From Butyrivibrio sp. (lineage in GTDB: Bacteria; Bacillota; Clostridia; Lachnospirales; Lachnospiraceae): a stretch of DNA of 38,369 nucleotides. Both the position numbers and the translations under genes were made by a program. The stretch is from NCBI GenBank assembly GCA_017615275.1, contig JAGAAO010000022.1, forward strand, positions 1-38,369, read 5' to 3'. Below the pieces are notes generated by a model. The model saw nothing but the letters and a program-made list of their open reading frames with translations. It was not told where the DNA came from and searched no databases. Below, in pieces: positions 1,472 to 37,838 of this stretch; position 1 is the stretch's first letter; the number at the start of each line of letters is the position of its first letter.

Positions 1472-1876
1472 ATGGGACGCAAAAAGCTTAAACCGGATTA
1501 TGATCCGAAAAAAATAATGCAGGAACTTATTGATATAACAAAAGAGCTTTATGACAGAAAGCTTTCATACCGGCAGATTGGCAAGGAACTGGATCTTTCG
1601 GTATCCAAAGTTATAAAGCTCCTTATCACCGGTGGGGTTTATTCTTCGGATATTTGCCGGAAGATAAACCAACTATATGCTTCTGGCAAGACTATCCCAG
1701 AGATACAGAAAAGCCTGAACATCAGCAGGGCTTCTGTCCAGGCTTATCTGCCTTATAAGAAGTGCGTTTATAATGCTATGGAGCTGAGCCTTAACGCAGA
1801 GCGGATCAGGCGCTACAGGCAGAGGAAGAGGGAGAAAGAGAGTGTTACAGTTCCCAGTTCCGGTCTTTGTTCCTGA
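1472..1876 (+). CDS. Small helix-turn-helix DNA-binding protein
   Basis: A 134-residue basic protein with two HTH-like units. The first, around residues 31-53, reads SYRQIGKELDLSVSKVIKLL. The second, around 71-92, reads TIPEIQKSLNISRASVQAYL. Both resemble resolvase- or sigma-region-4-type helices. A basic tail, RRYRQRKREK, follows. The ATG has AAGGAT just upstream. The last 32 bases overlap the 3' end of the relaxase gene on the other strand, so the two converge. This arrangement suggests a regulator or accessory DNA-binding protein of the mobilization module. The exact role is not visible. Confidence 0.75.
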   Translation: MGRKKLKPDYDPKKIMQELIDITKELYDRKLSYRQIGKELDLSVSKVIKLLITGGVYSSDICRKINQLYASGKTIPEIQKSLNISRASVQAYLPYKKCVYNAMELSLNAERIRRYRQRKREKESVTVPSSGLCS

Positions 1877-3230
1877 GAGGTTCTGATCTGCCCGGTTCCT
1901 CAAGGAATTTTATGATGCTTTTTTCCATGGATTTGAGTCGATCATGCTCGGCTGCTTTGGCTTCGGAAGAAGCTAAGAAAGTCTTGCGGTCGGCTTCAAG
2001 TTTATGGAGGTGTTCTTCGATATCCTTTACTTTTAATGTAGCGGGATCTATGCCGCTGTTTTTCAGCCAGCTCTTTGCTCCTTCGAAGAGCCGGAGCTGG
2101 TAATCATGTTCTTTTTCGTACCTTTCTTTGTCCTTGGATTTTTCGTAATTATCCCCATATTTTTTGTTCTCTGTATACCGTTTGGCGACTGTCAGTATCT
2201 GGCGGAATTCCCTGATCTTTTTGTCAAGAGACGCTGCGCTTCTTTTATCCAGAGTAGCTCCGGTATCAAGCTCTTTTATACGGCTTCGGAGGTCTTCTCT
2301 TGACTGCAGGCCTAATGTCCCCAGCTCTTCGTATATGGCTGCTATACGATGTAGATTTTCCTTGTCTTCATATTTGGCAAGTCCGATGCTTTCGGCTTTC
2401 TTTTCGTCCGGAATGTTAACAAGTTTTGTGGGAACGGCACCTTCATTCCGCAAGTTCTTCAGAATAGGAGAGTGGCTGTTTTCTTCAATCCTTTCTTTTA
2501 TCCTTTCCTTAGTATAATCCGGTCCTAAGGTGTTGCCCCTTCCCCTTACAAACCTGTCCTTACCAAAGGGTCGGAATGAGATGTATTTTGCGGATCCTTC
2601 GCCGAATGTTTCGCCGTGGATTTCATAGCCTTTTTCTCTCATAAGTCTTAAGAATTCTTCATAGGAGAGTGCTGCTTTTATGCACTCATTTATATCTTTC
2701 TTGACCTGGGATTTCCAGGAATCTCCCTTTTTATCATGGTACCATTCATTATATGTTTTCCCGGTTTCCCTGAAGTCTTTTATGACTGATTTGTTGTGCT
2801 CGGCGCACAGCTCATCGCTTATGTCCCTGATACGGTAGTAGTTCTTGAAAGTAGAACGGAATTTGTGGTGCTCTATGTTATCAGTAGCTGAAAATATGAT
2901 GTGATTATGAATATGATCATGGTCTATGTGGGTGGCAAATACATAGGAATATCTGCCCTGCAGGAAACGGTCGGCAAGCTCTTTCCCTATCTGATGTGCT
3001 TCCTCGCCGGATATTTCTCCCGGAGCAAAGGACTGGATGAGATGATAGGCTAGATTCTGCCCGGGAGAGTTTGTCTTTCCGAGGGCAAATCTGAAGTCGT
3101 ACTCAGCCGTTTCCCTGCCACAGGCAAAGGTGGTCACCAGCACATTGTCATCTGTTTTATGGGGGTTGCAAATGTAGTCTATTGCCCTTCCGACGGTAGC
3201 ATTGATAGCATGGATTTTTGTAACTGCCAT
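1845..3230 (-). CDS. Relaxase / mobilization nuclease (MobA/VirD2-type)
   Basis: A 461-residue relaxase of the Pfam Relaxase family, probably MOBP class. Such enzymes nick one strand at oriT through a Tyr and pilot the DNA during conjugation. The candidate catalytic Tyr is in IDYICNP near residue 19. The metal-binding His cluster HIDHDHIHNH spans about 101-110, and the C-terminal half is charged and coiled. The N-terminus overlaps the mobC-like gene by 52 bases, a normal layout for this pair. No coupling protein or type IV secretion genes are visible, so the element looks mobilizable rather than self-transmissible. Confidence 0.93.
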   Translation of the reverse strand: MAVTKIHAINATVGRAIDYICNPHKTDDNVLVTTFACGRETAEYDFRFALGKTNSPGQNLAYHLIQSFAPGEISGEEAHQIGKELADRFLQGRYSYVFATHIDHDHIHNHIIFSATDNIEHHKFRSTFKNYYRIRDISDELCAEHNKSVIKDFRETGKTYNEWYHDKKGDSWKSQVKKDINECIKAALSYEEFLRLMREKGYEIHGETFGEGSAKYISFRPFGKDRFVRGRGNTLGPDYTKERIKERIEENSHSPILKNLRNEGAVPTKLVNIPDEKKAESIGLAKYEDKENLHRIAAIYEELGTLGLQSREDLRSRIKELDTGATLDKRSAASLDKKIREFRQILTVAKRYTENKKYGDNYEKSKDKERYEKEHDYQLRLFEGAKSWLKNSGIDPATLKVKDIEEHLHKLEADRKTFLASSEAKAAEHDRLKSMEKSIIKFLEEPGRSEPLRNKDRNWEL

Positions 3231-6025: not shown

Positions 6026-7258
6026 ATGGCAAAGGTTAGGAAAGATTCAAAGGGACGGGTACTGCATAAGGGGGAGTCATATAACAGGATAAAGGGTCTT
6101 TACTGTTATAATTTTACAGATCCTTCAGGTAACAGGATATTCATTTACTCCAGGGATCTCGGAGATCTTCGTGATCGTGAGGAAGAGATAGCAAAGAACA
6201 GGCTAGATAAGATTGATTTATATACAAGATCAAGGTCTGATCTCAACTATCTGTTCGACAGGTATATAGCGACCAAGACGGAACTCCGCAGCACGACGAT
6301 GACCAATTATGTATATACCTATGACCGTTATGTAAGAAACGGATTTGGCAAGAGAAAGATAAGTGATATAAAATACTCGGATGTGCTGATGTTCTACAAT
6401 TCGTTCCTTGAGAAAGGATTAAAGGTAAGTACGGTGGATTCGATGCACTGCGTTCTTCATCCTGCGTTCCAGATGGCTGTAAGGGACTGCATCATAAGGA
6501 TTAACCCGACCGATGGGGTGATGGCCGAGCTTAAGAAGAAGCTCAAGGGCAGATCCGAACCCAGGCATGCACTTACCATTGAAGAGGAAAGGGCATTCCT
6601 TAAATATCTGGAGAAGCCTGAGAATGAAAGGTGGAAGAGCCTGTTCATCGTGATGTTCGGAACGGGATGCAGGGTTGGAGAGATAATCGGGCTGAGATGG
6701 GAAGATGTCGATTTCGAGAAGAATACGATCTGCATCAACCACAACATCACATATTATCCGAGACATGACAATGATTACAAGTGTGAGTACAGGGTAGCAC
6801 TTCCGAAGACAGAGGCCGGCATCAGGACAATCCCTATGTTGGATAAAGTAAGGGAGACTCTGCAGAAGGAAAAGGCGTATCAGGAATCATCCGGGATGAA
6901 GTGCATTTCTGAGGTTGATGGTATGTCGGGTTTCATCTTCTTCAACCGGTTTGGTATGCTCCATAGCCCCAGTAGCATTAACAGGGAGATTAAACGTATG
7001 GTCGATGACCATAACGCTTCTGAAGAAGTTAAGGCTAGCAGGGAACACAGGGAGCCGGTACTTATACCAAAGTTCAGCTGTCACATAACAAGACATACTT
7101 TCTGCAGTCGGCTTTGTGAGAATGAGACTAATCTGAAGTGTATCCAGGAAGTGATGGGGCACAGGGATATCCAGACTACTATGAATGTATATGCAGAGTT
7201 CTCTGAGGCAAAAAAGCAGGAAGCATTCAAACAATTAAACAGTAGAAATGTTTTTTAG
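6026..7258 (+). CDS. Tyrosine recombinase / integrase (Tn916-like)
   Basis: A 410-residue phage-integrase-family protein that would insert and excise the element. It has an N-terminal arm-binding region with GLYCYNFTDPSGNRIFIYSRDL (cut here as GLYCYNFTDPSG), a core-binding SAM-like domain around 70-165, and a catalytic domain. The catalytic residues are visible: Arg216 in GCRVGE, His353 and Arg356 in HITRH, the His of MGHRD, and Tyr389 in MNVYAE. Length is normal for the family. A ribosome site, AAAGGAAG, precedes the ATG. The 3' end of this gene is repeated, degenerate, about 214 bases downstream. Confidence 0.95.
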   Translation: MAKVRKDSKGRVLHKGESYNRIKGLYCYNFTDPSGNRIFIYSRDLGDLRDREEEIAKNRLDKIDLYTRSRSDLNYLFDRYIATKTELRSTTMTNYVYTYDRYVRNGFGKRKISDIKYSDVLMFYNSFLEKGLKVSTVDSMHCVLHPAFQMAVRDCIIRINPTDGVMAELKKKLKGRSEPRHALTIEEERAFLKYLEKPENERWKSLFIVMFGTGCRVGEIIGLRWEDVDFEKNTICINHNITYYPRHDNDYKCEYRVALPKTEAGIRTIPMLDKVRETLQKEKAYQESSGMKCISEVDGMSGFIFFNRFGMLHSPSSINREIKRMVDDHNASEEVKASREHREPVLIPKFSCHITRHTFCSRLCENETNLKCIQEVMGHRDIQTTMNVYAEFSEAKKQEAFKQLNSRNVF

Positions 7259-8123: not shown

Positions 8124-9440
8124 ATGGGATTTTACTTATTACGTTTACGATTAAGTGGGATAAAGAATATATCAAAGGAAATAGAACTGGAGTTTTATAA
8201 TAAAGTGTTAGAAGGCTTTAATCCGGAAAAACACAGGGTTAAGGCTATATACGGGGAAAACGGGTCAGGAAAGACTGCTATAATGACAGCTATCAGTATA
8301 GCTAAAAAGGTGGCTTTTAGTCTGAATTATTTAAACCAAACAGAAACTCAGACATTACTTAGTGAGATGATAAATAAAGCAACAAAATCTTTTAGTATTG
8401 AGTTTGAATTTGTTAATTCTGTAAGAAAGAATCTTGATGTATATCAATATGGCTTTACGTTGACTCAAAACAAAAGAAAAGCATATGAGATCAGCCACGA
8501 AAAATTGAGTATTATAAAGAATTATACCAAAAATAAAAAGTATTCGACCTTGGTTGAAATCGAGAACGGACAGATAATCAGTGCAGATTTGGACAAAGAA
8601 AATTTTGAAGAGCTTAAGAAAAATACACAAAATCTTCTATCAGAAAGCTCGCTTATATCCAGATACTTTAATAGAGAAGCTGTTTATAGCAATCTTACTA
8701 TTGGAATTTGGCATACACTATTTTTTTTCTCATACATAAATGTTTATTTGGAAGAAGAGGATAAGCATGAAATGTATATGATAGGTAACAGTATTAATCT
8801 TAGGGACATTGATAGTGATAACAATACAGATATTGAAAATGTAAAAAATGAATCTAAGAAAGAAAAACAAATATCATATATGGATGCTAAAGGAAGAGAT
8901 ATAGTTTATAAAGAAGACTTTGTAATATATAAGAAAAAGATAGATAAACTGAGTAAATTCCTTGCTTTGTTTAAGAGTGACCTGAAAACGATAAAGATTG
9001 ATAAGCGTGATGACGGGGATACTTACAGGTGCGAGCTTATTTTGGATTATGGAAAATACAGTGTAAATCGTGAGTTTGAGAGCACCGGTATAAAGAAATT
9101 GATCAAGGTGTATGATGCATTAGTTAATGCGGACGAAGGAGGTATATCCTTTATAGATGAGATGGACTCCAATCTCAATGATGTGTATCTGTGTAAAATA
9201 ATAGAGTACTTCACAAAATATGGTAAGGGTCAGCTATGCTTTACCACACATAATCTTGATCCGATGTCTGTGTTAAAGAATAACAGAAATTCCATAGATT
9301 TCTTGTCAGGAGATAATAAGATAATACCTTGGAAAGTGACAGGAAATGCAGCTCCGGACAGGTACTACAGAAACGGTATGATAGAAGATATGCCGTTTAA
9401 TGTAGATGCTATAGACTTTATCGGAATGTTTGGGGAGTGA
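8124..9440 (+). CDS. AAA family ATPase, probable phage-defence component
   Basis: A 438-residue ABC/SMC-type ATPase of the AAA_15/AAA_21 group. Walker A GENGSGKT is at 44-51, a signature-like FESTGIKKL near 317, Walker B ISFIDEMD with Asp345-Glu346, and the switch His in TTHN at 376. The middle (90-290) is a family-specific insertion with charged helices. The partner gene begins 3 bases after the stop. ATPases of this type paired with TOPRIM or RloB-like proteins occur in abortive-infection and PARIS- or AbiL-like systems. The gene is clearly AT-rich compared with the polysaccharide genes. Its exact family is not settled. Confidence 0.85.
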   Translation: MGFYLLRLRLSGIKNISKEIELEFYNKVLEGFNPEKHRVKAIYGENGSGKTAIMTAISIAKKVAFSLNYLNQTETQTLLSEMINKATKSFSIEFEFVNSVRKNLDVYQYGFTLTQNKRKAYEISHEKLSIIKNYTKNKKYSTLVEIENGQIISADLDKENFEELKKNTQNLLSESSLISRYFNREAVYSNLTIGIWHTLFFFSYINVYLEEEDKHEMYMIGNSINLRDIDSDNNTDIENVKNESKKEKQISYMDAKGRDIVYKEDFVIYKKKIDKLSKFLALFKSDLKTIKIDKRDDGDTYRCELILDYGKYSVNREFESTGIKKLIKVYDALVNADEGGISFIDEMDSNLNDVYLCKIIEYFTKYGKGQLCFTTHNLDPMSVLKNNRNSIDFLSGDNKIIPWKVTGNAAPDRYYRNGMIEDMPFNVDAIDFIGMFGE

Positions 9441-26144: not shown

Positions 26145-27959
26145 ATGCAGGCGATTATATTGGCGGCCGGAATGGGAAAACGGCTCAAGGAACTGACAAA
26201 ACATAACACAAAATGTATGGTGAAGGTGGGCGGAGTGATGCTCATTGAGAGAATGCTTTTACAGCTTGACTGTAAAGACCTCACCCGTATTGTGATAGTG
26301 ATCGGGTTTGAAGGCCGGAAGCTGCAGGATTTCATCGAAACTCTTTCAGTGAAAACACCAATCACATTCATTGAAAATCCGATTTATGACAGAACAAATA
26401 ATATATATTCCCTGGCACTTGCAAAGGATCGGCTCCGCGCGGAAGACACGGTTATTTTAGAGTCGGACCTAATTTTTGATGATGAAGTTTTGGATATGCT
26501 TCTGTCGGATCCGCGGGATACGCTTGCCCTGGTGGACAAATATGAGTCGTGGATGGATGGAACCTGTGTCAAGCTTGATGAGGAAAATCACATCGTAGAA
26601 TTCGTGCCAGGGTCAGTGTTCCGTTTTGATGAGGCTGATATATATTACAAAACCGTGAATGTATATAAGTTTAGCCGGCATTTTTCGGAAACTTATTATA
26701 TTCCTGCGTTGGAAGCATATCTGAAGGCTCTCGGGGAGAATGAATATTACGAACAGGTGCTCAGAGTCGTCGTTATGCTGAATGATTCTATCATTCAGGC
26801 AAAAAGGCTTTCCGGTCAGAAATGGTACGAGATTGATGATATTCAGGATTTAGATATTGCCGAGTCGTTGTTTGAAAAGGATGAAAATATCCGTTCACGA
26901 ATGATGAGCGAACGATATGGCGGTTATTGGCGTTATCCTAAGATGCTGGATTTCTGCTATCTGGTGAATCAGTTTTTCCCGACACAGCGGATGAAAGAGG
27001 AGATGGGAGCTGTCTTTGAGACGATGCTTACGGAATATCCAAGCGGAATGCGCGTAAACAGCCTGCTTGCAGGAAAATGCTTTGATGTCAGAGCGGAAAA
27101 CATAGCAGTCGGAAACGGAGCTTCAGAGTTGATAAAAAGTCTGATGGAGAGCTTTTCCGGTAAGACAGGATTTGTCAGGCCGACATTCGAAGAGTATCCG
27201 AACCGATATGATAGCGGGCGATCGGTTTTCTTTGACACAAAAAGTCCGGATTATTCTTATGGCGCGGACGAGCTTATTCGATTCTTCGGGGAACATCCGA
27301 TTGATAATCTGGTAATTGTGAACCCGGACAATCCAAGCGGAAACTACATCCCGAAGAAAGACATGTTAATGCTTGCCGCATGGTGCAGGGAAAGGGGCAT
27401 CAACCTTTTGATCGATGAATCCTTTGTCGATTTTTCCGACGAAGTGAATGCAACGCTGATAAATCGGGAGTACTTATCTGAATTCCCGAATCTGTATGTC
27501 ATAAAGAGTATTTCGAAGTCTTACGGTGTGCCGGGACTTCGTCTTGGAGTACTTGCTTCCGGGGATACAGGGAAGATTGAAGAGATCAGGAAAGATTTGG
27601 CGATATGGAATATCAATTCTTTCGCAGAGTACTTTATGCAGATATTGGAAAAGTATCGTAAGTCATACGAGGTTGCACTTGAACTGCTTCGAAAGGAACG
27701 ATCGAGGTTCATGAATGAGCTTGCAATGATTCCGGGAATTCGCGTCATTCCGTCTCAGGCGGATTTCGTGATGATAGAGTATAACGGAGATTCCGGGAGA
27801 TTGACAAGTATTCTTCTTGCCAAATACAACATTCTGGTTAAGGATTTAGAAAAAAAAATGCAGGGACAGTCCTATCTGAGGTTTGCTGTCAGAACAAAAG
27901 AAGACAACGAACGGCTTCTGTCGGCACTGCGTGAGATTATATCTGGAGAAATGTCATGA
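26145..27959 (+). CDS. Fused nucleotidyltransferase and PLP aminotransferase/decarboxylase
   Basis: A 604-residue two-domain protein. Residues 1-240 are a LicC-like NTP transferase: IILAAGMGKRLKELT, then KCMVKVGG, and ESDLIFDD as the metal site. Residues 255-604 are a fold-type I PLP enzyme close to HisC and CobD, with GNGASELIKSL, NPDNPSGNYIP and SISKSYGVPGLRLG, whose Lys458 is the PLP anchor. Similar fusions (PntC) make CDP-activated 2-aminoethylphosphonate, and CobD-like enzymes in capsule loci decarboxylate phosphoserine for CDP-ethanolamine. Either product would feed phospho-decoration. ATGA overlap with the next gene suggests coupling. Confidence 0.85.
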   Translation: MQAIILAAGMGKRLKELTKHNTKCMVKVGGVMLIERMLLQLDCKDLTRIVIVIGFEGRKLQDFIETLSVKTPITFIENPIYDRTNNIYSLALAKDRLRAEDTVILESDLIFDDEVLDMLLSDPRDTLALVDKYESWMDGTCVKLDEENHIVEFVPGSVFRFDEADIYYKTVNVYKFSRHFSETYYIPALEAYLKALGENEYYEQVLRVVVMLNDSIIQAKRLSGQKWYEIDDIQDLDIAESLFEKDENIRSRMMSERYGGYWRYPKMLDFCYLVNQFFPTQRMKEEMGAVFETMLTEYPSGMRVNSLLAGKCFDVRAENIAVGNGASELIKSLMESFSGKTGFVRPTFEEYPNRYDSGRSVFFDTKSPDYSYGADELIRFFGEHPIDNLVIVNPDNPSGNYIPKKDMLMLAAWCRERGINLLIDESFVDFSDEVNATLINREYLSEFPNLYVIKSISKSYGVPGLRLGVLASGDTGKIEEIRKDLAIWNINSFAEYFMQILEKYRKSYEVALELLRKERSRFMNELAMIPGIRVIPSQADFVMIEYNGDSGRLTSILLAKYNILVKDLEKKMQGQSYLRFAVRTKEDNERLLSALREIISGEMS

Positions 27960-30763
27960 GTTTTTCAACCATTTTTTTTACGATCATCATTAAACCACTG
28001 GAACTTTTGTTCGAAGTGGTTTATTATAATGCAAATAAACTCATCCATGACCCGGGCTTGTCCATAGTTTTCCTCAGCCTTGCCGTTAATTTTTTGATCC
28101 TGCCGTTATATCAGAAAGCGGACAAGATGCAGGAGGAAGAGAAAAAGGTTGAAGAAAAGCTGAAAGACGGGGTTAAGCATATAAAGAAAACCTTTCGGGG
28201 AAACGAACGCTTTTATATGATTCAAACTTACTACCGCCAGAACGGGTATAAGCCGGTTTATGCACTTCGGGGAGCAGTTCCTTTGCTGTTGGAAATTCCT
28301 TTCTTCATTGCGGCGTATCATTTTCTGTCGACGCTGAATTCACTTCATGGTATTTCTTTTGGCCCGATTGCCGATCTCGGAGCACCGGATGCAATGATTA
28401 CATGGGGAGACCTGACAATCAATGTTCTTCCGATCATCATGACGGTGATCAATATCATTTCCGGTGCGATCTATGCTGAAAGGCTTTCAAAAAGAGGAAA
28501 AATCCAGCTGGTGGTTTTGGCGGCAGTATTCCTTGTATTACTGTATGGTGCACCTGCGGGTCTGGTATTCTATTGGACTCTGAATAATCTGTTTTCACTT
28601 GTTAAGAATATCTTCTACAAACTGAAAAATCCAAAGCGTGTATTGCTTTTTCTTTTCGCTCTTGCCGGAGCGGGGGTTGCAATCTTTTCTGTAGTGCGGA
28701 CTGATTACGGAACCAGAAGACGGCTGTTTCTTCTGGTTGGGGCAGCGGTTCTGTTGATGCCGCTGGTTGTTTCCGAAGTCAAGAAAAGATTCAAAGTCGC
28801 GAAACAGCCGGAAGATTTGAACCAAAGAGATACTGTAAGCTTTCGGAGGATATTTTTCCTTTCAGGGCTGTATTTGTCAATCCTGTTGGGACTGCTGATT
28901 CCGGGAAATGTTGTCGCATCCTCGGTGTCTGAGTTTGTTGATGTTGATGTTCCCCATTCGCCGATCAGTTATGTCTGGGTGACGTTTCTGATCGGCGTCG
29001 GATATTTTATTGTTTGGTTTGGCGTTATATTTTTCATGGCCGACGTGAAGACAAGAAAGTATCTGGCAGGCGGAGTGTTTTGTTTTTCTACAATATGCAC
29101 TGTGAATTATATGCTGTTTAACAAGAAAGCGGGAACAATGTCTGACCTGCTTCAGTTTGACGAGGCACTTTTATATTCGAAAAAAGAGTATGCAATAAAT
29201 CTTTTGACACTTGCGGCAATTGTGGTACTTTGTGTCGTCTTAGTCAAATGGAACAAAAAACTCGTGTTCGCCTTACTTATGGCCGGCGTAATAGCGGTTG
29301 GAATTCCGGGCATCAAAAATATCATAAATATTAACAGAGATTATAAAACAACTCAGGAGCGAATCACACAAGCGGATAAATATCCGACGCTTACGTTCAG
29401 TAAAACCGGGAAAAACGTTGTTGTTTTAATGGTGGACAGTCTTGTGAGTTATTATGTGCCGTATATGTTTTATGAGAAGCCGGAACTAATGGAGGCTTTT
29501 GACGGGTTTACTTTCTATCCCAATACTATCTCATTTGGATGTCAGACTATTTTCGGTTCGCCCGGGCTGTATGGCGGATACGAGTATACACCGAAAGAAA
29601 TGAATAAGAGGGATCAGGAATTACTTGTTGATAAGCAAAACGAGGCGCTTAGGGTAATGCCTGCAATTTTCTATCAGGGTAATTATGCAGTGACGGTATG
29701 CGACCCGACCTACGCAGGATATAATGAGGTTCCGGACCTGACAATATACGATGAATATCCCGGGATGGAAACATATGTTACCATGGGGAGAGTCGGACAG
29801 AATGAATTGGCCCGCGAACGGATAGAAGAAACCAGAAGCCGGAATTTTTTCTTATACTCGGTTTTTGGGGTATGTCCGTCGTTGTTCCAGTTGAATATAT
29901 ACGATGGAGGGAATTACTGTTCCACGAGGACCGGTACGGAGGAAGAAAACCGGCAGCTTGTTCCGGGAGGACAGGTAATGGAGACTCTTTCTATTGCGAC
30001 CGGAGTTCACAGCGGATTTATGAAGCAATATAATGTCATGAATAATCTTGAGAACATTTCGGAAACGGTTGACGACGGGACAGATCATTTTATCATGATG
30101 AGCAACAGTCTTCCGCATAACCCGATGTTTGTTAAGGAACCGGAGTACGAACCGTTGTATTCGGTTGACAATACGGAATATGACAAAACACATCACATAA
30201 AAGATAACGGAAAAGGTGACTTAAAGGATTTTTATGACGAGGGCAATTACCCCAGATATCAGGCTAATATGACGGCCATGCTGAAACTCGCAGAATGGTT
30301 CTCTTATCTGAAAGAGAAAGGCATTTGGGACAATACCAGAATCATCATTGTTTCGGATCATGCAAGACGTCTCGGTGATTTGGCGGGAATGCGAAAGTAT
30401 TTCGGTTTTGAAGTGGATCGTAACGTTCCCGAGCATATGGATGAAACGGATTTTTCGGTGTTTAACTGCACGCTGCTCGTTAAGGATTTTGGCGCTTCGG
30501 GATTTGTTACGGATGACACGTTTATGACAAATGCGGATGTTCCGACCCTGGCATTCCGGACTCTGATTGACAATCCGATCAATCCGTTTACAGGAAAACC
30601 TATAGACAGTACATACAAAATGAACAATAGGATGGAGTTGTTCATGGGGAAGAATTACAGTGTATATTCGAACAATGGTTATACCTTCCAACCGGACCAC
30701 TGGTTCTCGGTTCGTGACAATATCTTTGACCTGGATAATTGGGAATACATTGGTTATCGCTAG
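27956..30763 (+). CDS. YidC-like membrane domain fused to a sulfatase-fold phosphotransferase
   Basis: A 935-residue protein. Residues 1-225 look like the YidC/Oxa1 insertase core: DPGLSIVFLSLAVNFLILP, an amphipathic charged hairpin, LRGAVPLLLEIPFFIAAYHF, and GAPAGLVFYWTLNNLFSLVK. Several more membrane helices follow (about 228-470). From about 480 an extracytoplasmic alkaline-phosphatase/sulfatase domain carries VVVLMVDS, GCQTIFGSPG with a Thr or Ser nucleophile candidate, and IIIVSDHARR. This is the fold of LTA synthase and phosphoethanolamine transferases. The start codon overlaps the stop of the fused cytidylyltransferase gene. It probably transfers a phospho-alcohol onto surface glycans, which is an inference. 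Confidence 0.85.
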   Translation: MSFSTIFFTIIIKPLELLFEVVYYNANKLIHDPGLSIVFLSLAVNFLILPLYQKADKMQEEEKKVEEKLKDGVKHIKKTFRGNERFYMIQTYYRQNGYKPVYALRGAVPLLLEIPFFIAAYHFLSTLNSLHGISFGPIADLGAPDAMITWGDLTINVLPIIMTVINIISGAIYAERLSKRGKIQLVVLAAVFLVLLYGAPAGLVFYWTLNNLFSLVKNIFYKLKNPKRVLLFLFALAGAGVAIFSVVRTDYGTRRRLFLLVGAAVLLMPLVVSEVKKRFKVAKQPEDLNQRDTVSFRRIFFLSGLYLSILLGLLIPGNVVASSVSEFVDVDVPHSPISYVWVTFLIGVGYFIVWFGVIFFMADVKTRKYLAGGVFCFSTICTVNYMLFNKKAGTMSDLLQFDEALLYSKKEYAINLLTLAAIVVLCVVLVKWNKKLVFALLMAGVIAVGIPGIKNIININRDYKTTQERITQADKYPTLTFSKTGKNVVVLMVDSLVSYYVPYMFYEKPELMEAFDGFTFYPNTISFGCQTIFGSPGLYGGYEYTPKEMNKRDQELLVDKQNEALRVMPAIFYQGNYAVTVCDPTYAGYNEVPDLTIYDEYPGMETYVTMGRVGQNELARERIEETRSRNFFLYSVFGVCPSLFQLNIYDGGNYCSTRTGTEEENRQLVPGGQVMETLSIATGVHSGFMKQYNVMNNLENISETVDDGTDHFIMMSNSLPHNPMFVKEPEYEPLYSVDNTEYDKTHHIKDNGKGDLKDFYDEGNYPRYQANMTAMLKLAEWFSYLKEKGIWDNTRIIIVSDHARRLGDLAGMRKYFGFEVDRNVPEHMDETDFSVFNCTLLVKDFGASGFVTDDTFMTNADVPTLAFRTLIDNPINPFTGKPIDSTYKMNNRMELFMGKNYSVYSNNGYTFQPDHWFSVRDNIFDLDNWEYIGYR

Positions 30764-30779: not shown

Positions 30780-32012
30780 ATGCACTCTCATATATTTCTT
30801 TATATTGATCCCGGAACCGGGAGTATGCTTTTTACGATTTTAATCAGTGTTATCAGTGTGGCGATATATTTCCTGAGAGACATTTTTGTGAAACTTTGCC
30901 TTTGGTTTAGCGGAAGACATGCAGAAAAAAATTACGAAAAACTGCCGGTGGTGATTTTCTCGGACGACAAAAGGTATTGGAATGTTTTTGAACCAATCTG
31001 TGAAGAGCTGGAGTCAAGAGGGATTGATACGGTATATATGACCTCTTCTGAAGATGATCCCGCATTTAAAAAGCCGTATGAGCATATAAGGGCGGAGTTT
31101 ATCGGAAAAGGAAACAAAGCATTTGCCAAATTGAACCGGCTTAGCGCAGAAGTGGTGCTCTCAACGACTCCGAGCCTTGATGTGTTCCAGTGGAAAAGGT
31201 CAAAAAACGTTAATTGTTATATCCACATCGCGCATGCGGCGGATGACATCACAAAGTACAGGATGTTCGGAATCGATTATTATGATTCGATTTTACTTGG
31301 AGGAGAGTATCAGGGCCGACAGGTGCGGGCATTGGAAAAATTGCGGAATCTCCCGGCAAAGGACATCGAATACGTTGGTATGCCGTATCTGGACAGGATG
31401 AGACAGCGTCTTGATCAAACAGAAAGCGATTCAAAGGCGGGGAATAAAATAACGGTTCTTCTGGCCCCATCCTGGGGAGAAAGCGGGATTCTTTCAAAAT
31501 ATGGGGCGGAATTTGTGGAGAACCTGGCTGAGACAGGTTATGAAATCATTATCAGACCGCATCCGCAATCTTATGTTTCCGAAAAGGAAATGCTGGACGA
31601 GCTCCAAAAACGATTCGCCGATGTGCCGAATATTACATGGAATCGGGACAACGATAACTTTGAAGTATTAAGGCGGTCCGATATATTGATTTCGGATTTT
31701 TCCGGTGTTATTTTTGATTTTGCACTTGTGTTTGATAAGCCGGTCATCTATGCGGATACGGAATTTGACAAGTCGCCGTATGATTGTTATTGGCTTGACG
31801 AAGAGCTTTGGACCTTTGAAATTCTGCCGAAAATAGGAATGGAACTGAACACATTCAATCAGAAGGACATCCGGAAACTAATTTCAGAGTGCCTGCATCG
31901 TGAGGAATTCCGTCAGGGAAGAGAGCAGGCGAGAAGAGAAACCTGGATGCATATGGGGGAGGGTGCCCGGCGAACAGTGGATTATATCGTAGACCACCTT
32001 CGGTTTGAATGA
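30780..32012 (+). CDS. CDP-glycerol/ribitol phosphotransferase-like (TagB/TagF family)
   Basis: A 410-residue protein with an N-terminal membrane anchor (LFTILISVISVAIYFLRDIF) and a GT-B like catalytic part. VLSTTPSLDVFQW, IHIAHAADD, IIIRPHPQS and DILISDFSGVIFDFALVFDK are hallmarks of the glycerophosphotransferase family of teichoic acid synthesis. AAGGAG precedes the ATG, 16 bases after the previous stop. It could add or polymerise glycerol- or another polyol-phosphate on the lipid-linked glycan. The donor (CDP-glycerol) is a family expectation. Confidence 0.85.
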   Translation: MHSHIFLYIDPGTGSMLFTILISVISVAIYFLRDIFVKLCLWFSGRHAEKNYEKLPVVIFSDDKRYWNVFEPICEELESRGIDTVYMTSSEDDPAFKKPYEHIRAEFIGKGNKAFAKLNRLSAEVVLSTTPSLDVFQWKRSKNVNCYIHIAHAADDITKYRMFGIDYYDSILLGGEYQGRQVRALEKLRNLPAKDIEYVGMPYLDRMRQRLDQTESDSKAGNKITVLLAPSWGESGILSKYGAEFVENLAETGYEIIIRPHPQSYVSEKEMLDELQKRFADVPNITWNRDNDNFEVLRRSDILISDFSGVIFDFALVFDKPVIYADTEFDKSPYDCYWLDEELWTFEILPKIGMELNTFNQKDIRKLISECLHREEFRQGREQARRETWMHMGEGARRTVDYIVDHLRFE

Positions 32013-32031: not shown

Positions 32032-33219
32032 ATGGTATTCAGCTCGGCTATATTCTTGCTGATATTTTTGCCGATTGTCTTTGTCGGTAACCTTTTGATC
32101 TGGAAGAAACTATCAAACGCCTTCCTGCTCTTTGCAAGCCTTGTTTTCTATGCCTGGGGTGAGCCTTATCTGGTGTTGCTTTTGGTTGCTTCGATTATGG
32201 TCAATTGGGGCTGCGGGCTGATGTTATCGAGAATAACAGGGAAACTTCGGAATGCTGTTTTGTTTGTCGGAATCGTCTGCAATCTCGGGGCATTCGGGTA
32301 TTACAAATACGCCGGTTTTTTCGTAAGAGCATTAAACAACATTGTCGGCAGACAAGTTTTAACGGTTCCGGACATAGCACTGCCGATTGGCATCTCATTT
32401 TTCACATTTCAGGCCTTGTCTTATATTATAGACGTTTACAGAAATAATACGGAGGCATCCGCCAATCCGGTCAATGTGGCTTTATATATTTCCTTCTTCC
32501 CGCAGTTGATTGCAGGGCCGATTGTGAAATACAGAGATATCGATAAACAGATTGAAACCCGTTCGGCAAGCTGGATTGATGTTTCGGATGGGTTTAAACG
32601 GTTCATATACGGGCTCGGGAAGAAGGTTCTGATAGCAAATGTGCTCGGAAAGTGTGTTGACACAATCTATTCGTATGGTATCGCTGTGATAGATTGTAAA
32701 GCGGCCTGGATTGGTGCGTTGGCATATACATTTCAGATTTACTATGACTTTTCCGGTTATTCGGATATGGCAATCGGGTTGGGACAGATGTTTGGCTTCA
32801 GAATTCCCGAAAACTTTCAGTATCCGTATCTTTCGAGATCAATATCTGAGTTTTGGAGAAGATGGCATATTTCCTTAGGATTATGGTTTCGGGAATATGT
32901 TTATATCCCGTTGGGCGGAAATAGAAAGGGAACCATTCGAACGTATATCAATCTGATTATCGTTTTCTTTCTCACGGGGCTTTGGCATGGGGCAGCTGTT
33001 TCATTCGTAATCTGGGGATTGTATCACGGCATTTTTGTTGTTATTGAAAGACTCGGACTGAAAAAGACAATTCTGGATAAGTCAGTTATCATATCGAGAG
33101 TCTATACTTTTTTGGTCGTCACATTCGGGTGGGTACTATTTCGCGCAAAAGGCATCATGACCGGTGTGAGATGGGCTGGCACAGGCATTTATATTGGGGG
33201 AGGAGTTCCTTGCAGGTGA
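32032..33219 (+). CDS. MBOAT O-acyltransferase, C-terminally truncated
   Basis: A 395-residue AlgI/DltB-type membrane acyltransferase. It starts VFSSAIFLLIFLPIVFVGNL and has the family text FPQLIAGPIVKYRDI and WHISLGLWFREYVYIPLGGN. The active-site His is in LTGLWHGAAVSFV, then WGLYHGIFVV. Usual family length is about 470 or more. Here the frame ends soon after FGWVLFRAKGIMTG with the foreign tail GIYIGGGVPCR, because the DNA switches to rfbA near 33195. The usual SGNH/DHHW partner is absent. The protein is probably inactive or altered. Confidence 0.85.
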   Translation: MVFSSAIFLLIFLPIVFVGNLLIWKKLSNAFLLFASLVFYAWGEPYLVLLLVASIMVNWGCGLMLSRITGKLRNAVLFVGIVCNLGAFGYYKYAGFFVRALNNIVGRQVLTVPDIALPIGISFFTFQALSYIIDVYRNNTEASANPVNVALYISFFPQLIAGPIVKYRDIDKQIETRSASWIDVSDGFKRFIYGLGKKVLIANVLGKCVDTIYSYGIAVIDCKAAWIGALAYTFQIYYDFSGYSDMAIGLGQMFGFRIPENFQYPYLSRSISEFWRRWHISLGLWFREYVYIPLGGNRKGTIRTYINLIIVFFLTGLWHGAAVSFVIWGLYHGIFVVIERLGLKKTILDKSVIISRVYTFLVVTFGWVLFRAKGIMTGVRWAGTGIYIGGGVPCR

Positions 33220-33808
33220 TGCCGGAGCGATGGTCCTAGGTGATAACATCTTTTATGGTAATGGGTTCAGGACATTGCTTAAGGCAGCAGTTAATAATGC
33301 TGAAGTTAATAAGAGAGCTACGGTATTTGGATATTATGTACCGGACCCTGAAAGATTCGGTGTAGTAGAGTTTGATGAGACTGGGAAGGCTTTAAGCATA
33401 GAGGAGAAACCGAAGGAGCCAAAGTCTAATTATGCTGTGACGGGATTATATTTCTATCCGGCAGGAGTAAGTGATAGAACTAATCAGGTGAAGCCTTCAG
33501 CTCGTGGTGAGCTTGAGATTACAACTCTTAATGAGATGTATCTGGATGATGGGCTATTGGATGTTCAGTTATTAGGACGTGGATTCGCATGGCTTGATAC
33601 CGGGACTATGAGTAGTTTACTTGAGGCAGCCAATTTTGTGGAGATGATCCAGTCAAGACAGGGAATTACCATATCAGCTCCTGAAGAGATCGCATTTATC
33701 AATGGGTTTATAGATAGGGATAGACTTATGGAGAGTGCTAAAGCGTATGGGAAGAGCCCGTATGGAGAGCACTTGAAGAAAGTGGCTGAGGGGAAGGTTA
33801 GGTACTGA
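33194..33808 (+). pseudogene. rfbA: Glucose-1-phosphate thymidylyltransferase, 5'-truncated
   Basis: The frame encodes the last 204 residues of RfbA, which is normally about 290 and makes dTDP-glucose for rhamnose. AMVLGDNIFYGNGF, SIEEKPKEPKSNYAVTGLYF and RGFAWLDTGTMSSLLEAANF are textbook RfbA. The missing N-terminus held the nucleotide-binding GGSGTRL motif, so the product cannot be functional. The only start in the frame is a TTG created at the junction with the MBOAT gene. No rfbB, rfbC or rfbD is nearby. Confidence 0.85.
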
Positions 33809-34736: not shown

Positions 34737-35771
34737 TTGATAGTGGAGAAGAGAAAAGGCTTTGTTGCAAAAAAGGATAAAACAAACAGGTCTATCATTC
34801 CTATGGATTCAGATGAATTCTTTCAATGGATGATTATAGCTGCCTATGCCGAAGGAAAACAAAAAGAATGGGATCAGCTCAGGCAATCTGGATTCAAAAG
34901 ACTGTATAAAAAGTTTTTTTATGATTTATTTAGAAATGGAATACCAAAATATTTAATAAAAACAGGAAAGAAATTATATCGTGCAAGACAAATAAAAAAA
35001 TCAGACCAGAGTAAATTAATGGTTGATATTAATGAAGTTACATTGGCTTTTTTTAAGATTTTTCTGTCTGAAGAGGAGATTTCTTCGCTAGACGTAATGA
35101 ATAATGGTGGTGGGTTAAAGTTTACCATTGAACATTTGTTTATGATGAAAATATATAACATGGAGGGATTTACAGACGAACAAAAAAGGAAAGTCCATAA
35201 ATTGATTAAGGAAAATAGTAATTGTAAGGTTTATGGTTTTTCTGAAAAAGATAGCCGTGTACCGCCTAAAGAGTACAGAGAAAATGGAAGATTAAATAGT
35301 AAAGCGGATGAGTACTTATATCTAGCTTTTGACAGAGATACCGCCATTCAAGAAAAACGCCCCTTTATTGGGCAACAGTACAGTATAGCTGAATTTAAAA
35401 CCAATAAAAATTTAGTTATGGCAGATTTGAGGGGCAAAGAGATCGACCTTAAACTATCGGATGTATCTTTTGCCTTTTTAGCTGATAAAATTAGTGAACC
35501 CAATACAGATGGTAAAGATGATTTTTATGATATAACTCAATATATGACACATATGCTTCAAAAACTCGGTTTTGATGGTATAGTATATAAAAGTGCACTA
35601 AAAAAAGATAAAGACAATATAGTAATATTTAATGAGACGAATGTGGATTTTATTTCGTCTGAAATAGTAAGCATTAAGGATGTGAGTGTTGATTATTCAA
35701 GGATACTTCCGTTTGATAAAAGGCAATTTAGCTTTACAAATACAAGTAAGAGAGAAAAAAATCGTAAATAA
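34737..35771 (+). CDS. RES-domain protein (putative NAD phosphorylase-type toxin)
   Basis: A 344-residue protein. KLYRARQI near 79-86, GRLNSKADEYLYLAFDRDTA near 183-202, and KLGFDGIVYKSALK then NIVIFN near the end match the RES domain, named for its Arg, Glu and Ser. Known RES toxins degrade NAD. The first 75 residues form a separate helical region with EFFQWMIIAAYAEG. No Xre-type antitoxin gene lies next to it, so it may be a lone effector or another branch of the family. The start codon in this frame is ATA-adjacent TTG at 34737, which is uncertain. The gene is AT-rich. Confidence 0.68.
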   Translation: MIVEKRKGFVAKKDKTNRSIIPMDSDEFFQWMIIAAYAEGKQKEWDQLRQSGFKRLYKKFFYDLFRNGIPKYLIKTGKKLYRARQIKKSDQSKLMVDINEVTLAFFKIFLSEEEISSLDVMNNGGGLKFTIEHLFMMKIYNMEGFTDEQKRKVHKLIKENSNCKVYGFSEKDSRVPPKEYRENGRLNSKADEYLYLAFDRDTAIQEKRPFIGQQYSIAEFKTNKNLVMADLRGKEIDLKLSDVSFAFLADKISEPNTDGKDDFYDITQYMTHMLQKLGFDGIVYKSALKKDKDNIVIFNETNVDFISSEIVSIKDVSVDYSRILPFDKRQFSFTNTSKREKNRK

Positions 35772-36509: not shown

Positions 36510-37838
36510 TTAGTCTTCAATGAAATTTATTATCTGATCGAAATTAAAGTCAGTATTAATAATAGGGATTCCACCATATTCACCCTTAAGATATTTCACT
36601 AAAGTGTTACTGCTTTTTTGAATCCTATAAGGACCATCGGTTATTGCAGTGATAGTTTTGCTAAAATCTTTCGAAATGTTTATGGTATAAATATTATCCC
36701 GAAGATCATAATCATCTAAAAACATAGTATTATGAGTTGTAAGTATTAATTGTCCCTTAATGATAGGGACTATTTTTTTTACTAAATTTGAAACTAATAA
36801 ATCATGAATTCCAGTGTCTATTTCATCTATGGCAATAACAATATCTTTGACAGAAGTTCCCAAGAAAAGTGGTAACAGATCCAATAACTGGCGGATTCCT
36901 TCGGATTCACTTGTGTATTCTATATCTGCAATAGTATTTGAAAGTCTTTTCTTAAAATATAGAGAGTACTTGGCTTTTTTATCTTCAATTATCTCCTTTT
37001 TATAGTATGCGCTTTCAATATCATTGGATAAAGACGAAAAGTACATGCTTATAATTTTTTCAGTGGTTTCTAATTTTGATATTTCATTAAGATCTATTAC
37101 TCCCTCGGTGAAGGATGTGAGTAGAGATTTGAAACGTGCTAGGCTGACCTGTGAAGTATCGTGTTTTTTTAGGTGACAAGTAATATTATTAAAATACCCC
37201 AAAACGTTTTGTAACCGTTTATCAATATGAGATTTAATATAGTCATTAGAATAATCGTTCTTTAAATAAAATAAGATTGAGAGTATAGAGTGCTTTCCCC
37301 AATACTTTTTTGACAGGGTAGATAATTCATCTTGAAGCTCTATGTCAAAAATAGTAGGATTATATCGCTCATTATTGATTGTTTTTTCGAAATAAATACC
37401 TTTATTTTTTTGGATAGTATATTCTAGTTTCTCACTGATAATTTGAGAATCATTAAATTCAATATAATAGGAACCTATTTTACCCGTTAGCGAAAAAGTT
37501 ATTTCGATACTCATATTGGAAGAAGAATTAATAGTTTTGTATTCTTTTATTATATGAGCAATACTATAGTAATATAGCATGTTTTTTAAATCGAAGATTT
37601 TCTTTTGACTATCATTGTCTTCAAGCATATCCATTATTATTTTATGTGTATTAAGGGTATGCGTAGTTTCGGTAAGACAGTCTAAAGCTTCTACAAAATT
37701 AGTTTTCCCGGATCCGTTAGCTCCATACAATAATATGAGTTTTTTAGGGTTATTATTTTTGCCTACAAAGTTAAAAGTGGCATCAGTAAAGGATTTGAAG
37801 TTTTTTAAGTGTATTTCGCGAATCATGGTTTTTACCAT
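36510..37838 (-). CDS. RloA-like AAA ATPase, no partner visible
   Basis: A 442-residue ABC/SMC-type ATPase of the AAA_15/AAA_21 group. Walker A GANGSGKT is at 39-46, the signature SESEGIRQLLDLLP near 315, Walker B IVIAIDEID with Asp338-Glu339, and the switch His in LTTHN near 370. IHLKNFKSF at the N-terminus is typical. AAAGGG stands very close to the first ATG; a second ATG four codons in is also possible. These ATPases usually pair with an RloB- or TOPRIM-type gene, but the downstream hairpin follows only 14 bases after the stop. It may be a solo defence protein or a remnant of a pair. Confidence 0.85.
   Translation of the reverse strand: MVKTMIREIHLKNFKSFTDATFNFVGKNNNPKKLILLYGANGSGKTNFVEALDCLTETTHTLNTHKIIMDMLEDNDSQKKIFDLKNMLYYYSIAHIIKEYKTINSSSNMSIEITFSLTGKIGSYYIEFNDSQIISEKLEYTIQKNKGIYFEKTINNERYNPTIFDIELQDELSTLSKKYWGKHSILSILFYLKNDYSNDYIKSHIDKRLQNVLGYFNNITCHLKKHDTSQVSLARFKSLLTSFTEGVIDLNEISKLETTEKIISMYFSSLSNDIESAYYKKEIIEDKKAKYSLYFKKRLSNTIADIEYTSESEGIRQLLDLLPLFLGTSVKDIVIAIDEIDTGIHDLLVSNLVKKIVPIIKGQLILTTHNTMFLDDYDLRDNIYTINISKDFSKTITAITDGPYRIQKSSNTLVKYLKGEYGGIPIINTDFNFDQIINFIED

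Follow-up and report, generated by a model that had tools for sequence, protein, structure and literature searches.

A gene in the 38,369-nucleotide stretch of Butyrivibrio sp. DNA analyzed here (hereafter the window) raises the question of what a YidC/Oxa1-type core does when it is joined, in one polypeptide, to a transferase-like domain of the alkaline phosphatase (AP) superfamily. AP transferases of the LtaS/EptA type carry a five-helix anchor in front of the AP domain and use phospholipid donors. The original prediction, made from the window's letters, proposed that the insertase fold may have been taken over in place of this anchor, serving either as an anchor itself or as a channel that presents the acceptor or the lipid donor.

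The fusion protein and its two halves

The gene and the parts of its product are as follows:

27956–30763, plus strand: fusion of a YidC core, seven hydrophobic segments and an AP-superfamily domain, 935 amino acids (ORF reading, profile searches and relatives)
27956–28639, plus strand: YidC/Oxa1-type core, residues 1–228 (PF02096, 1.1e-23; PDB profile match to YidC, 3.1e-12)
28088–28090, plus strand: codon of N45, the position of the YidC groove Arg (Asn in 73/73 fusions)
28640–29365, plus strand: seven hydrophobic segments, residues 229–470 (hydropathy scan)
29387–30754, plus strand: AP-superfamily (LtaS/EptA-like) domain, residues 478–933 (PF00884 in relatives; AP profile against the PDB)
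29435–29437, plus strand: codon of D494, presumed metal ligand (73/73; role by motif position)
29546–29548, plus strand: codon of T531, presumed nucleophile (73/73; role by motif position)
30116–30118, plus strand: codon of H721, presumed active-site His (73/73)
30356–30361, plus strand: codons of D801 and H802, presumed metal ligands of the SDH motif (73/73 each)

Reading the frame from the ATG at 27956 to the stop ending at 30763 gives 935 codons without an internal stop, precisely the single frame that had been predicted. The YidC/Oxa1 core placed at its N-terminus is borne out as well: PF02096 matches residues 34–221 (E = 1.1e-23; 84.4 bits, cut-off 35), TIGR03592 reaches 86.2 bits, slightly above its cut-off of 84.3, and the core retrieves YidC from the PDB both as a single sequence (entries named YidC 2 at 7.4e-8, alignable across the entire core) and as a profile (3.1e-12).

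The profile test of the other half comes out differently for the window protein, in which PF00884 stays at 19.4 bits, under its cut-off of 25, and for the family, in which all 29 scanned AP-domain members match it with E-values of 0.1 or lower, down to 5.8e-9. Against the PDB, the AP-domain profile finds phosphonate monoester hydrolase and sulfatases, followed lower down by LTA synthase 4uoo and YejM; the 4uoo match (1.2e-3) covers a short stretch, only around the DH motif. The C-terminal AP-superfamily domain of the original prediction nevertheless stands, with MVDS (D494), the Thr region (T531) and SDHAR (D801, H802) in place and with D494, T531, H721, D801 and H802 identical in all 73 aligned relatives, the window included. 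We take the roles of these five residues from the motif positions of LtaS/EptA enzymes, and by the placing of its Thr and its Asp/His motifs the AP half is a putative LtaS/EptA-like transferase. A type I (formylglycine) sulfatase was considered and rejected: the motif of that class is presumably C/S-x-P-x-R, and at this site the window reads GCQTIFGSP and the consensus of the 73 reads GxxTNFGxPALFGG.

Distribution of the fusion

How often such a fusion occurs was asked in two genome sets. The fusion lies in one frame in 8/200 genomes of the family, the window's own included (G000, G004, G022, G036, G049, G109, G169 and G184), among 12/200 that match at 1e-5, the remainder being a variant in G052 and three genomes, G081, G097 and G183, where the YidC part is matched weakly or over a short stretch. 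At 1e-20, 3/398 genomes of the phylum match, the window's own among them. A scan of a named genome collection returned at least 595 related stretches, the best 80 of which were kept and represent 77 loci; since the scan used two patterns, one gene may yield two stretches. Among the matches listed, many of the record titles refer to Lachnospiraceae, Oscillospiraceae or other clostridia and to rumen or gut samples, and one refers to an Eggerthellaceae MAG.

In the loci fetched, 115 full-length fusion ORFs were read, amounting to 109 distinct sequences beyond the window's, all with the same domain order. That the fusion is an artefact of assembly or gene calling, an idea to which a suspicious junction elsewhere in the window (near 33.19 kb) might lend color, is thereby refuted and has a practically negligible probability; these 109 relatives, with the eight one-frame occurrences in the family, dispose of the assembly join against which the original prediction had cautioned.

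The loci with a YidC–AP fusion (type 1) number 84 and include sets from the same genome (L024/L025/L028; L154/L155; L041/L051; L067/L088; L071/L107); L046 and L049, which are the same contigs as L020 and L022, and L091 and L093, which overlap L060 and L066, were left out of the counts. Of the 81 de-duplicated loci that contain a full type-1 fusion, 20 have two to four full copies. In L054, L060 and L066, three to four full-length YidC–AP fusions are arrayed with PF04464 genes between some of them, and the L054 array is followed by a gene for an LCP-type ligase.

Conservation of the core and comparison with housekeeping YidC

The YidC core is the best-conserved region of the protein, with a mean pairwise identity among fusions of 64%, compared with 50% in the AP domain and 33% in the middle, and with 37/228 invariant positions, compared with 36/456 and 6/242, respectively. 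Fourteen of the invariant core residues are polar or aromatic, and three, Y98, Y206 and W207, are common to all 30 housekeeping YidCs of the family examined. Over the same columns, these 30 proteins are 52% identical to one another and about 21% identical to the fusion core, which forms its own clade at 100/100 in a tree of 70 rows. Such conservation makes a mere anchor unlikely. That the core is only an extra membrane anchor or folding aid, in keeping with the passive domains that fusions often add, is therefore highly improbable, the more so as membrane segments exist without the core (see below).

At the groove position, the fusions have Asn (N45) in 73/73. According to one report, a positive residue in the groove is strictly conserved among YidC homologs, yet is not essential in E. 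coli (PMC8920935). The housekeeping YidCs of this family (L108:1207–2535 and 29 loci, L122–L150) mostly lack that Arg, having Tyr in 17, Asn in 5, Lys in 4 and Arg in 4. Loss of the groove charge was accordingly dropped as proof of repurposing, as 22/30 housekeeping YidCs also have neither Arg nor Lys there. Given that N45 does not discriminate, the core is filed here as a homologous domain, and membership among the insertases is not claimed. Better differences from housekeeping YidC are N166, present in 73/73 fusions where 30/30 housekeeping YidCs have Gln, and K217, present in 72/73 (Arg in one) where 24/30 have Gln.

It could also be proposed that the core still inserts or holds membrane proteins, which the AP domain decorates as they emerge. 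The core is homologous to YidC by PF02096 and by PDB profile, and the stretch behind the first transmembrane segment, the site of the YidC C1 hairpin, is well conserved among fusions. Such a protein-modifying insertase is, however, very unlikely in view of N166 and K217, the identity of about 21%, the location of the genes in glycan clusters and a separate YidC encoded by the window's genome beside a Jag-like gene, as we presume this neighbor to be.

Membrane segments and topology

Hydropathy counts between the core and the AP domain come to seven segments for 42 of 73 relatives, six for 27 and five for 4; with a laxer threshold the same relatives give seven in 64, six in 6 and five in 3. The short relatives L027, L028 and L107, and also L029, have five segments, and L026 has four. 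Stand-alone AP proteins, which are discussed below, have five (L151, L178) or four (L173). No relative of the middle region was found in the PDB, the better of two matches having E = 1.

The usual five-helix anchor has thus probably been kept, with the YidC core added in front of it, and the earlier idea that the core replaces the anchor is not supported, because segments, mostly seven, persist behind the core in the 73 relatives. Likewise, as regards the two roles suggested for the insertase fold, that of an anchor is disfavored by the seven segments that exist besides the core and by a core more conserved than the catalytic domain, whereas presentation of an acceptor or lipid donor survives insofar as the gene neighborhood is compatible with it.

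YidC is presumably oriented with its C-terminus inside, and on this assumption the fusion core would end inside the cell, so that an odd number of segments after it would place the AP domain outside. The AP domain is probably outward-facing on this reckoning, against which weighs the even count of six in 27/73 relatives at the threshold used.

The PF04464 partner and a swapped fusion

The fusion gene is enclosed by two others on the same strand:

26145–27959, plus strand: nucleotidyltransferase fused to a CobD-like PLP enzyme (PF12804/PF00483 plus PF00155), with a 4-bp overlap with the start of the YidC–AP gene
30780–32012, plus strand: PF04464 (Glyphos_transf) partner (52.8 bits; cut-off 22.1), in which the stretch YIDPGTGSM lies at the N-terminus and a single hydrophobic segment is present

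The partner starts 16 bases past the fusion stop, and this gap, together with the 4-base overlap upstream, makes the three genes look like one transcription unit. A PF04464 partner is found in 77/84 type-1 loci (in L081 only the gene start is present), and it lies within 200 bp of the fusion on the same strand in 70/73 loci where ORF calling found it. The tally depends on the method, being 72 loci by clustering, 73/84 by ORF-based HMMs and 77 in total by tblastn, which recovered the L081 start and the partners masked by antisense ORFs in L021, L072 and L090. No PF04464 partner was found in seven loci: L024, L025 and L028 (all from genome G004), L051 (a short contig), L075, L077 and L092.

In 78/78 aligned partners, H152, R259–Q263 (RPHPQ), D306 and S308 are invariant. 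At 30801–30827 of the window, the partner has the stretch YIDPGTG-M, each letter of which occurs in 76 or 77 of the 78 and which leads into the single hydrophobic segment. The partner profile, with three type-2 domains (see below) included, matches Cps3D (2.2e-9), TarL and TagF in the PDB. PF04464 enzymes act in the cytoplasm on glycan or polyol chains, and to our knowledge none uses CDP-choline or loads a group onto a lipid such as diacylglycerol.

A swapped arrangement, termed type 2, joins a YidC core to the PF04464 domain instead (PF02096 8.2e-31, PF04464 3.3e-11). It occurs in 7/200 genomes of the family, with one further case among the 398 phylum genomes (G595), and a stand-alone AP protein lies near it in 4/7 loci, adjoining in L151 and L173 and a few hundred bases off in L177 and L178. 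L029 combines a YidC core of the type-1 clade with an AP half that resembles the stand-alone type more closely (28% over 537 residues, 5.5e-60) than it does the window protein (25% over 140 residues, 2.7e-8). Taken together, the swapped fusion, the stand-alone AP proteins and L029 indicate that the core, the PF04464 enzyme and the AP enzyme form a recurrent set in which either enzyme may carry the core.

The 70-row tree places the type-2 cores in one group with housekeeping YidC (97/90). A reduced tree of 27 rows gives the same grouping at 100/99.8 and rejects a single clade of both fusion types (p-AU 0.019), with the reservations that a single row serves as the outgroup, that a long-branch warning was raised and that the groups tested were named after the 70-row tree had been seen. 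From these sequence comparisons, we lean toward recruitment of the YidC core twice rather than once. Among the papers listed by literature searches that covered few subscription papers, no report of either fusion was recognized; the component families are known, and their combination and the swapped fusion appear to be new.

Activation genes around the fusions

The upstream gene of the window is predicted, on its domain content, to encode an enzyme that makes a CTP-activated alkanolamine phosphate. The best family for its PLP half is TIGR01140 (CobD) at 171.8 bits, under the cut-off of 290.55, which leaves the protein outside CobD proper; it carries SKSYGVPGLRLG, which we take to be the PLP-lysine motif. 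In the Campylobacter capsule enzyme Cj1436, serine phosphate is decarboxylated to ethanolamine phosphate (PMC12409886). By analogy with Cj1436, the window enzyme may make CDP-ethanolamine.

Activation genes were found by tblastn in 41/84 type-1 loci, 21 of the choline type (choline kinase, mostly with a LicC-like enzyme), 6 with the nucleotidyltransferase–PLP type, 2 with both, 5 of the aminoethylphosphonate type and 7 with a LicC-like gene only. The fusion thus does not always follow the fused cytidylyltransferase gene, a dependence that the original prediction had raised: this type is present in 8/84 loci, others have choline or aminoethylphosphonate genes, and in 43/84, many of them on short contigs, tblastn found no activation gene in the locus DNA examined. 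The HMM count of modules is 39/84, and the classes differ between the two methods for a few loci (e.g., L079, L101, L102). In the 38 loci flanked by 7 kb or more on both sides, HMMs find the partner in 35, a module in 21 and none in 17.

Two type-1 loci, L154 and L156, have PEP mutase, phosphonopyruvate decarboxylase and AEP transaminase, all above the NCBIfam cut-offs. Activation genes also accompany 5/7 type-2 loci, in L176 by a weak nucleotidyltransferase match only; among the genes tested there, those over their cut-offs are PEP mutase (L175 and L177) and AEP transaminase (L175).

The frequency of choline kinase in the genomes drawn from the family served as a control: the gene was found in 85/200, in 58 over the cut-off. 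Four of the eight full-fusion genomes have it over the cut-off, within 4 kb of the fusion in G109, G169 and G184 and on another contig in G022; the fusion variant G052 and the short or weak matches G081, G097 and G183 were not counted. Three such placements would arise by chance with a probability of roughly 7e-8, a rough figure computed post hoc.

LicD was not found in 14/23 choline-type genomes, among which only G169 has a stated completeness (98%). It was found in the other 9, directly upstream of the fusion in G516, and the transfer may therefore be the work of LicD there; two LicD matches are also present in the window's genome, outside the window's contig. Choline-binding repeats were detected in 12/45 genomes searched, including 5/23 of the choline type, too few to serve as a general marker. 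G606 has 12 matches to these repeats and no LicD found, and G619 has 29 matches and three LicD.

A further reading of the gene pair is that of a teichoic acid-like polymerase, in which an anionic chain is primed by the PF04464 enzyme and lengthened outside by the AP enzyme in the manner of LtaS, with the activation genes serving a later side decoration. It accords with the polymerases Cps3D, TarL and TagF being the PDB matches of the partner, and with the 20/81 loci that hold two to four full fusions, three of which (L047, L054 and L058) have an LCP-type ligase gene close by. It is unlikely, however, given that genes for zwitterionic groups are recurrent and that the HxGH motif, presumably the signature of glycerol-3-phosphate-type cytidylyltransferases, was found by scanning in two loci only, L029 and L079.

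Surroundings of the fusion in the window

From about 10 to 36 kb, the window encodes glycosyltransferases, a UDP-sugar dehydrogenase, a DegT aminotransferase, an MBOAT enzyme and a piece of RmlA, together with the following:

11769 and 35791: two Bac_transf-type priming transferases
13644 and 19164: two Polysacc_synt (Wzx-like) transporters

With Wzx-like transporters of its own, the cluster probably does not need the YidC core for glycan export. At 33180–33230, the MBOAT ORF (32032–33219) has an odd tail that meets an RmlA ORF (33194–33808) devoid of its first ~90 residues (model match from 91), and the meeting of two seemingly truncated genes near 33.19 kb is perhaps an assembly join or a deletion. 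Genes for AAA_21-type ATPases flank the glycan cluster (8124–9440 and 36510–37838). Beside it lie a relaxase gene (1845–3230, minus strand) and a Tn916-type integrase gene (6026–7258), perhaps the remains of a mobile element. There is also a gene for a RES-domain, toxin-like protein (34737–35771), with no obvious antitoxin, as judged by eye, among the small ORFs upstream.

A possible relay across the membrane

The locus suggests a previously unrecognized way to move ethanolamine-like, choline or phosphonate groups over the membrane for decoration of the surface. The reading that we favor, if tentatively and at somewhat below even likelihood, is a relay of two enzymes through which a surface glycan receives a zwitterionic phospho- or phosphono-group, the fusion protein being the outer half. 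It builds on what the sequences show: a conserved fusion in which the presumed active-site residues do not vary, its partner gene, the swapped arrangement and the activation genes. In the first step, the neighboring module would make the CTP-activated group. This may be CDP-choline or CMP-aminoethylphosphonate; for the window, CDP-ethanolamine is probable, made through decarboxylation of serine phosphate. The membrane-attached PF04464 enzyme would then shift the phospho-group from the CDP or CMP donor onto a lipid at the inner face, and the YidC-type core would let the polar head of this lipid cross the membrane through its groove. Finally, the AP domain outside would accept the group on T531 and pass it to the glycan. 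The substrates, the order of the steps, the topology and the lipid-crossing role are what we infer from the gene content and the domains.

E. coli YidC, Oxa1 and Get1, all Oxa1-family insertases, scramble lipids in vitro, according to a preprint (PMC10491306). This activity and the swapped fusions together make the lipid relay the most coherent reading. Carried further, it would mean that a bacterial machinery for decorating glycans has taken over the Oxa1/YidC fold, perhaps on two occasions, as a channel through which lipids pass, one core being shared by a cytoplasmic CDP-alkanolamine transferase and an outward AP transferase in a LicD-independent route for choline, ethanolamine phosphate or aminoethylphosphonate; this extended form is possible, though more conjectural.

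The strongest rival to the relay is that two separate decorations take place, with the PF04464 enzyme (or LicD) modifying a lipid-linked glycan in the cytoplasm, the AP enzyme adding another, phospholipid-derived group outside and the core serving only to dock the two enzymes to each other. As noted above, five-helix-anchored AP transferases take phospholipid donors and PF04464 enzymes work in the cytoplasm, on chains of glycan or polyol, and both would fit this reading, as would LicD in 9/23 choline-type genomes and the attachment of the core to one partner or the other. It is hard to square, however, with a core that is more conserved than the catalytic domain and has 14 invariant polar or aromatic residues, and we regard it as doubtful. 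Even if docking were all that the core does, a large family in which YidC is the best-scoring domain would consist of proteins that are not ordinary insertases.

If the relay holds, YidC-type proteins would gain a second role besides protein insertion, and candidates would be at hand for missing steps in the surface tailoring with phosphonates and phosphocholine. Zwitterionic surface groups, some of them resembling host lipids, would also be predicted in many rumen and gut clostridia.

Comparison with known systems

The nearest counterparts of the AP half are the LtaS/EptA-type enzymes, with which the fusion shares membrane segments followed by an AP domain whose Thr, Asp and His residues in the motifs do not vary; stand-alone relatives have four or five segments. 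It differs from them in the YidC core in front, usually in two extra hydrophobic segments and in a PF00884 score under the cut-off. GacH-type glycerol-phosphate transferases of streptococcal cell-wall glycans are likewise AP-superfamily enzymes that belong to a glycan cluster and act outside, and we know of no YidC core or PF04464 partner in these systems. With YidC, Oxa1 and Alb3, the fusion shares PF02096, a TIGR03592 score over the cut-off and an alignable whole core; it departs from them in the attached enzyme, its own clade at 100/100, an identity of about 21%, the fixed N166 and the nearly fixed K217.

In many loci, the genes beside the fusion resemble the Lic pathway (licABC and LicD) of pneumococcus and others, as they encode choline kinase, a LicC-like cytidylyltransferase and an EamA transporter, which we take to correspond to licA, licC and licB, respectively. 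In contrast to that pathway, LicD was not found in 14/23 such genomes (found in 9), and the locus has PF04464 and YidC–AP genes instead. Similarly, PEP mutase, phosphonopyruvate decarboxylase, AEP transaminase and a LicC-like nucleotidyltransferase are shared with the Pnt phosphonyl-tailoring clusters (Rice 2019, PMC6697681). In Pnt neighborhoods, that paper reports LicD-like phosphotransferases or glycosyltransferases and calls the later phosphonate steps unknown (PMC6697681). In the loci described here, it is the YidC fusions and the PF04464 genes that occupy that place.
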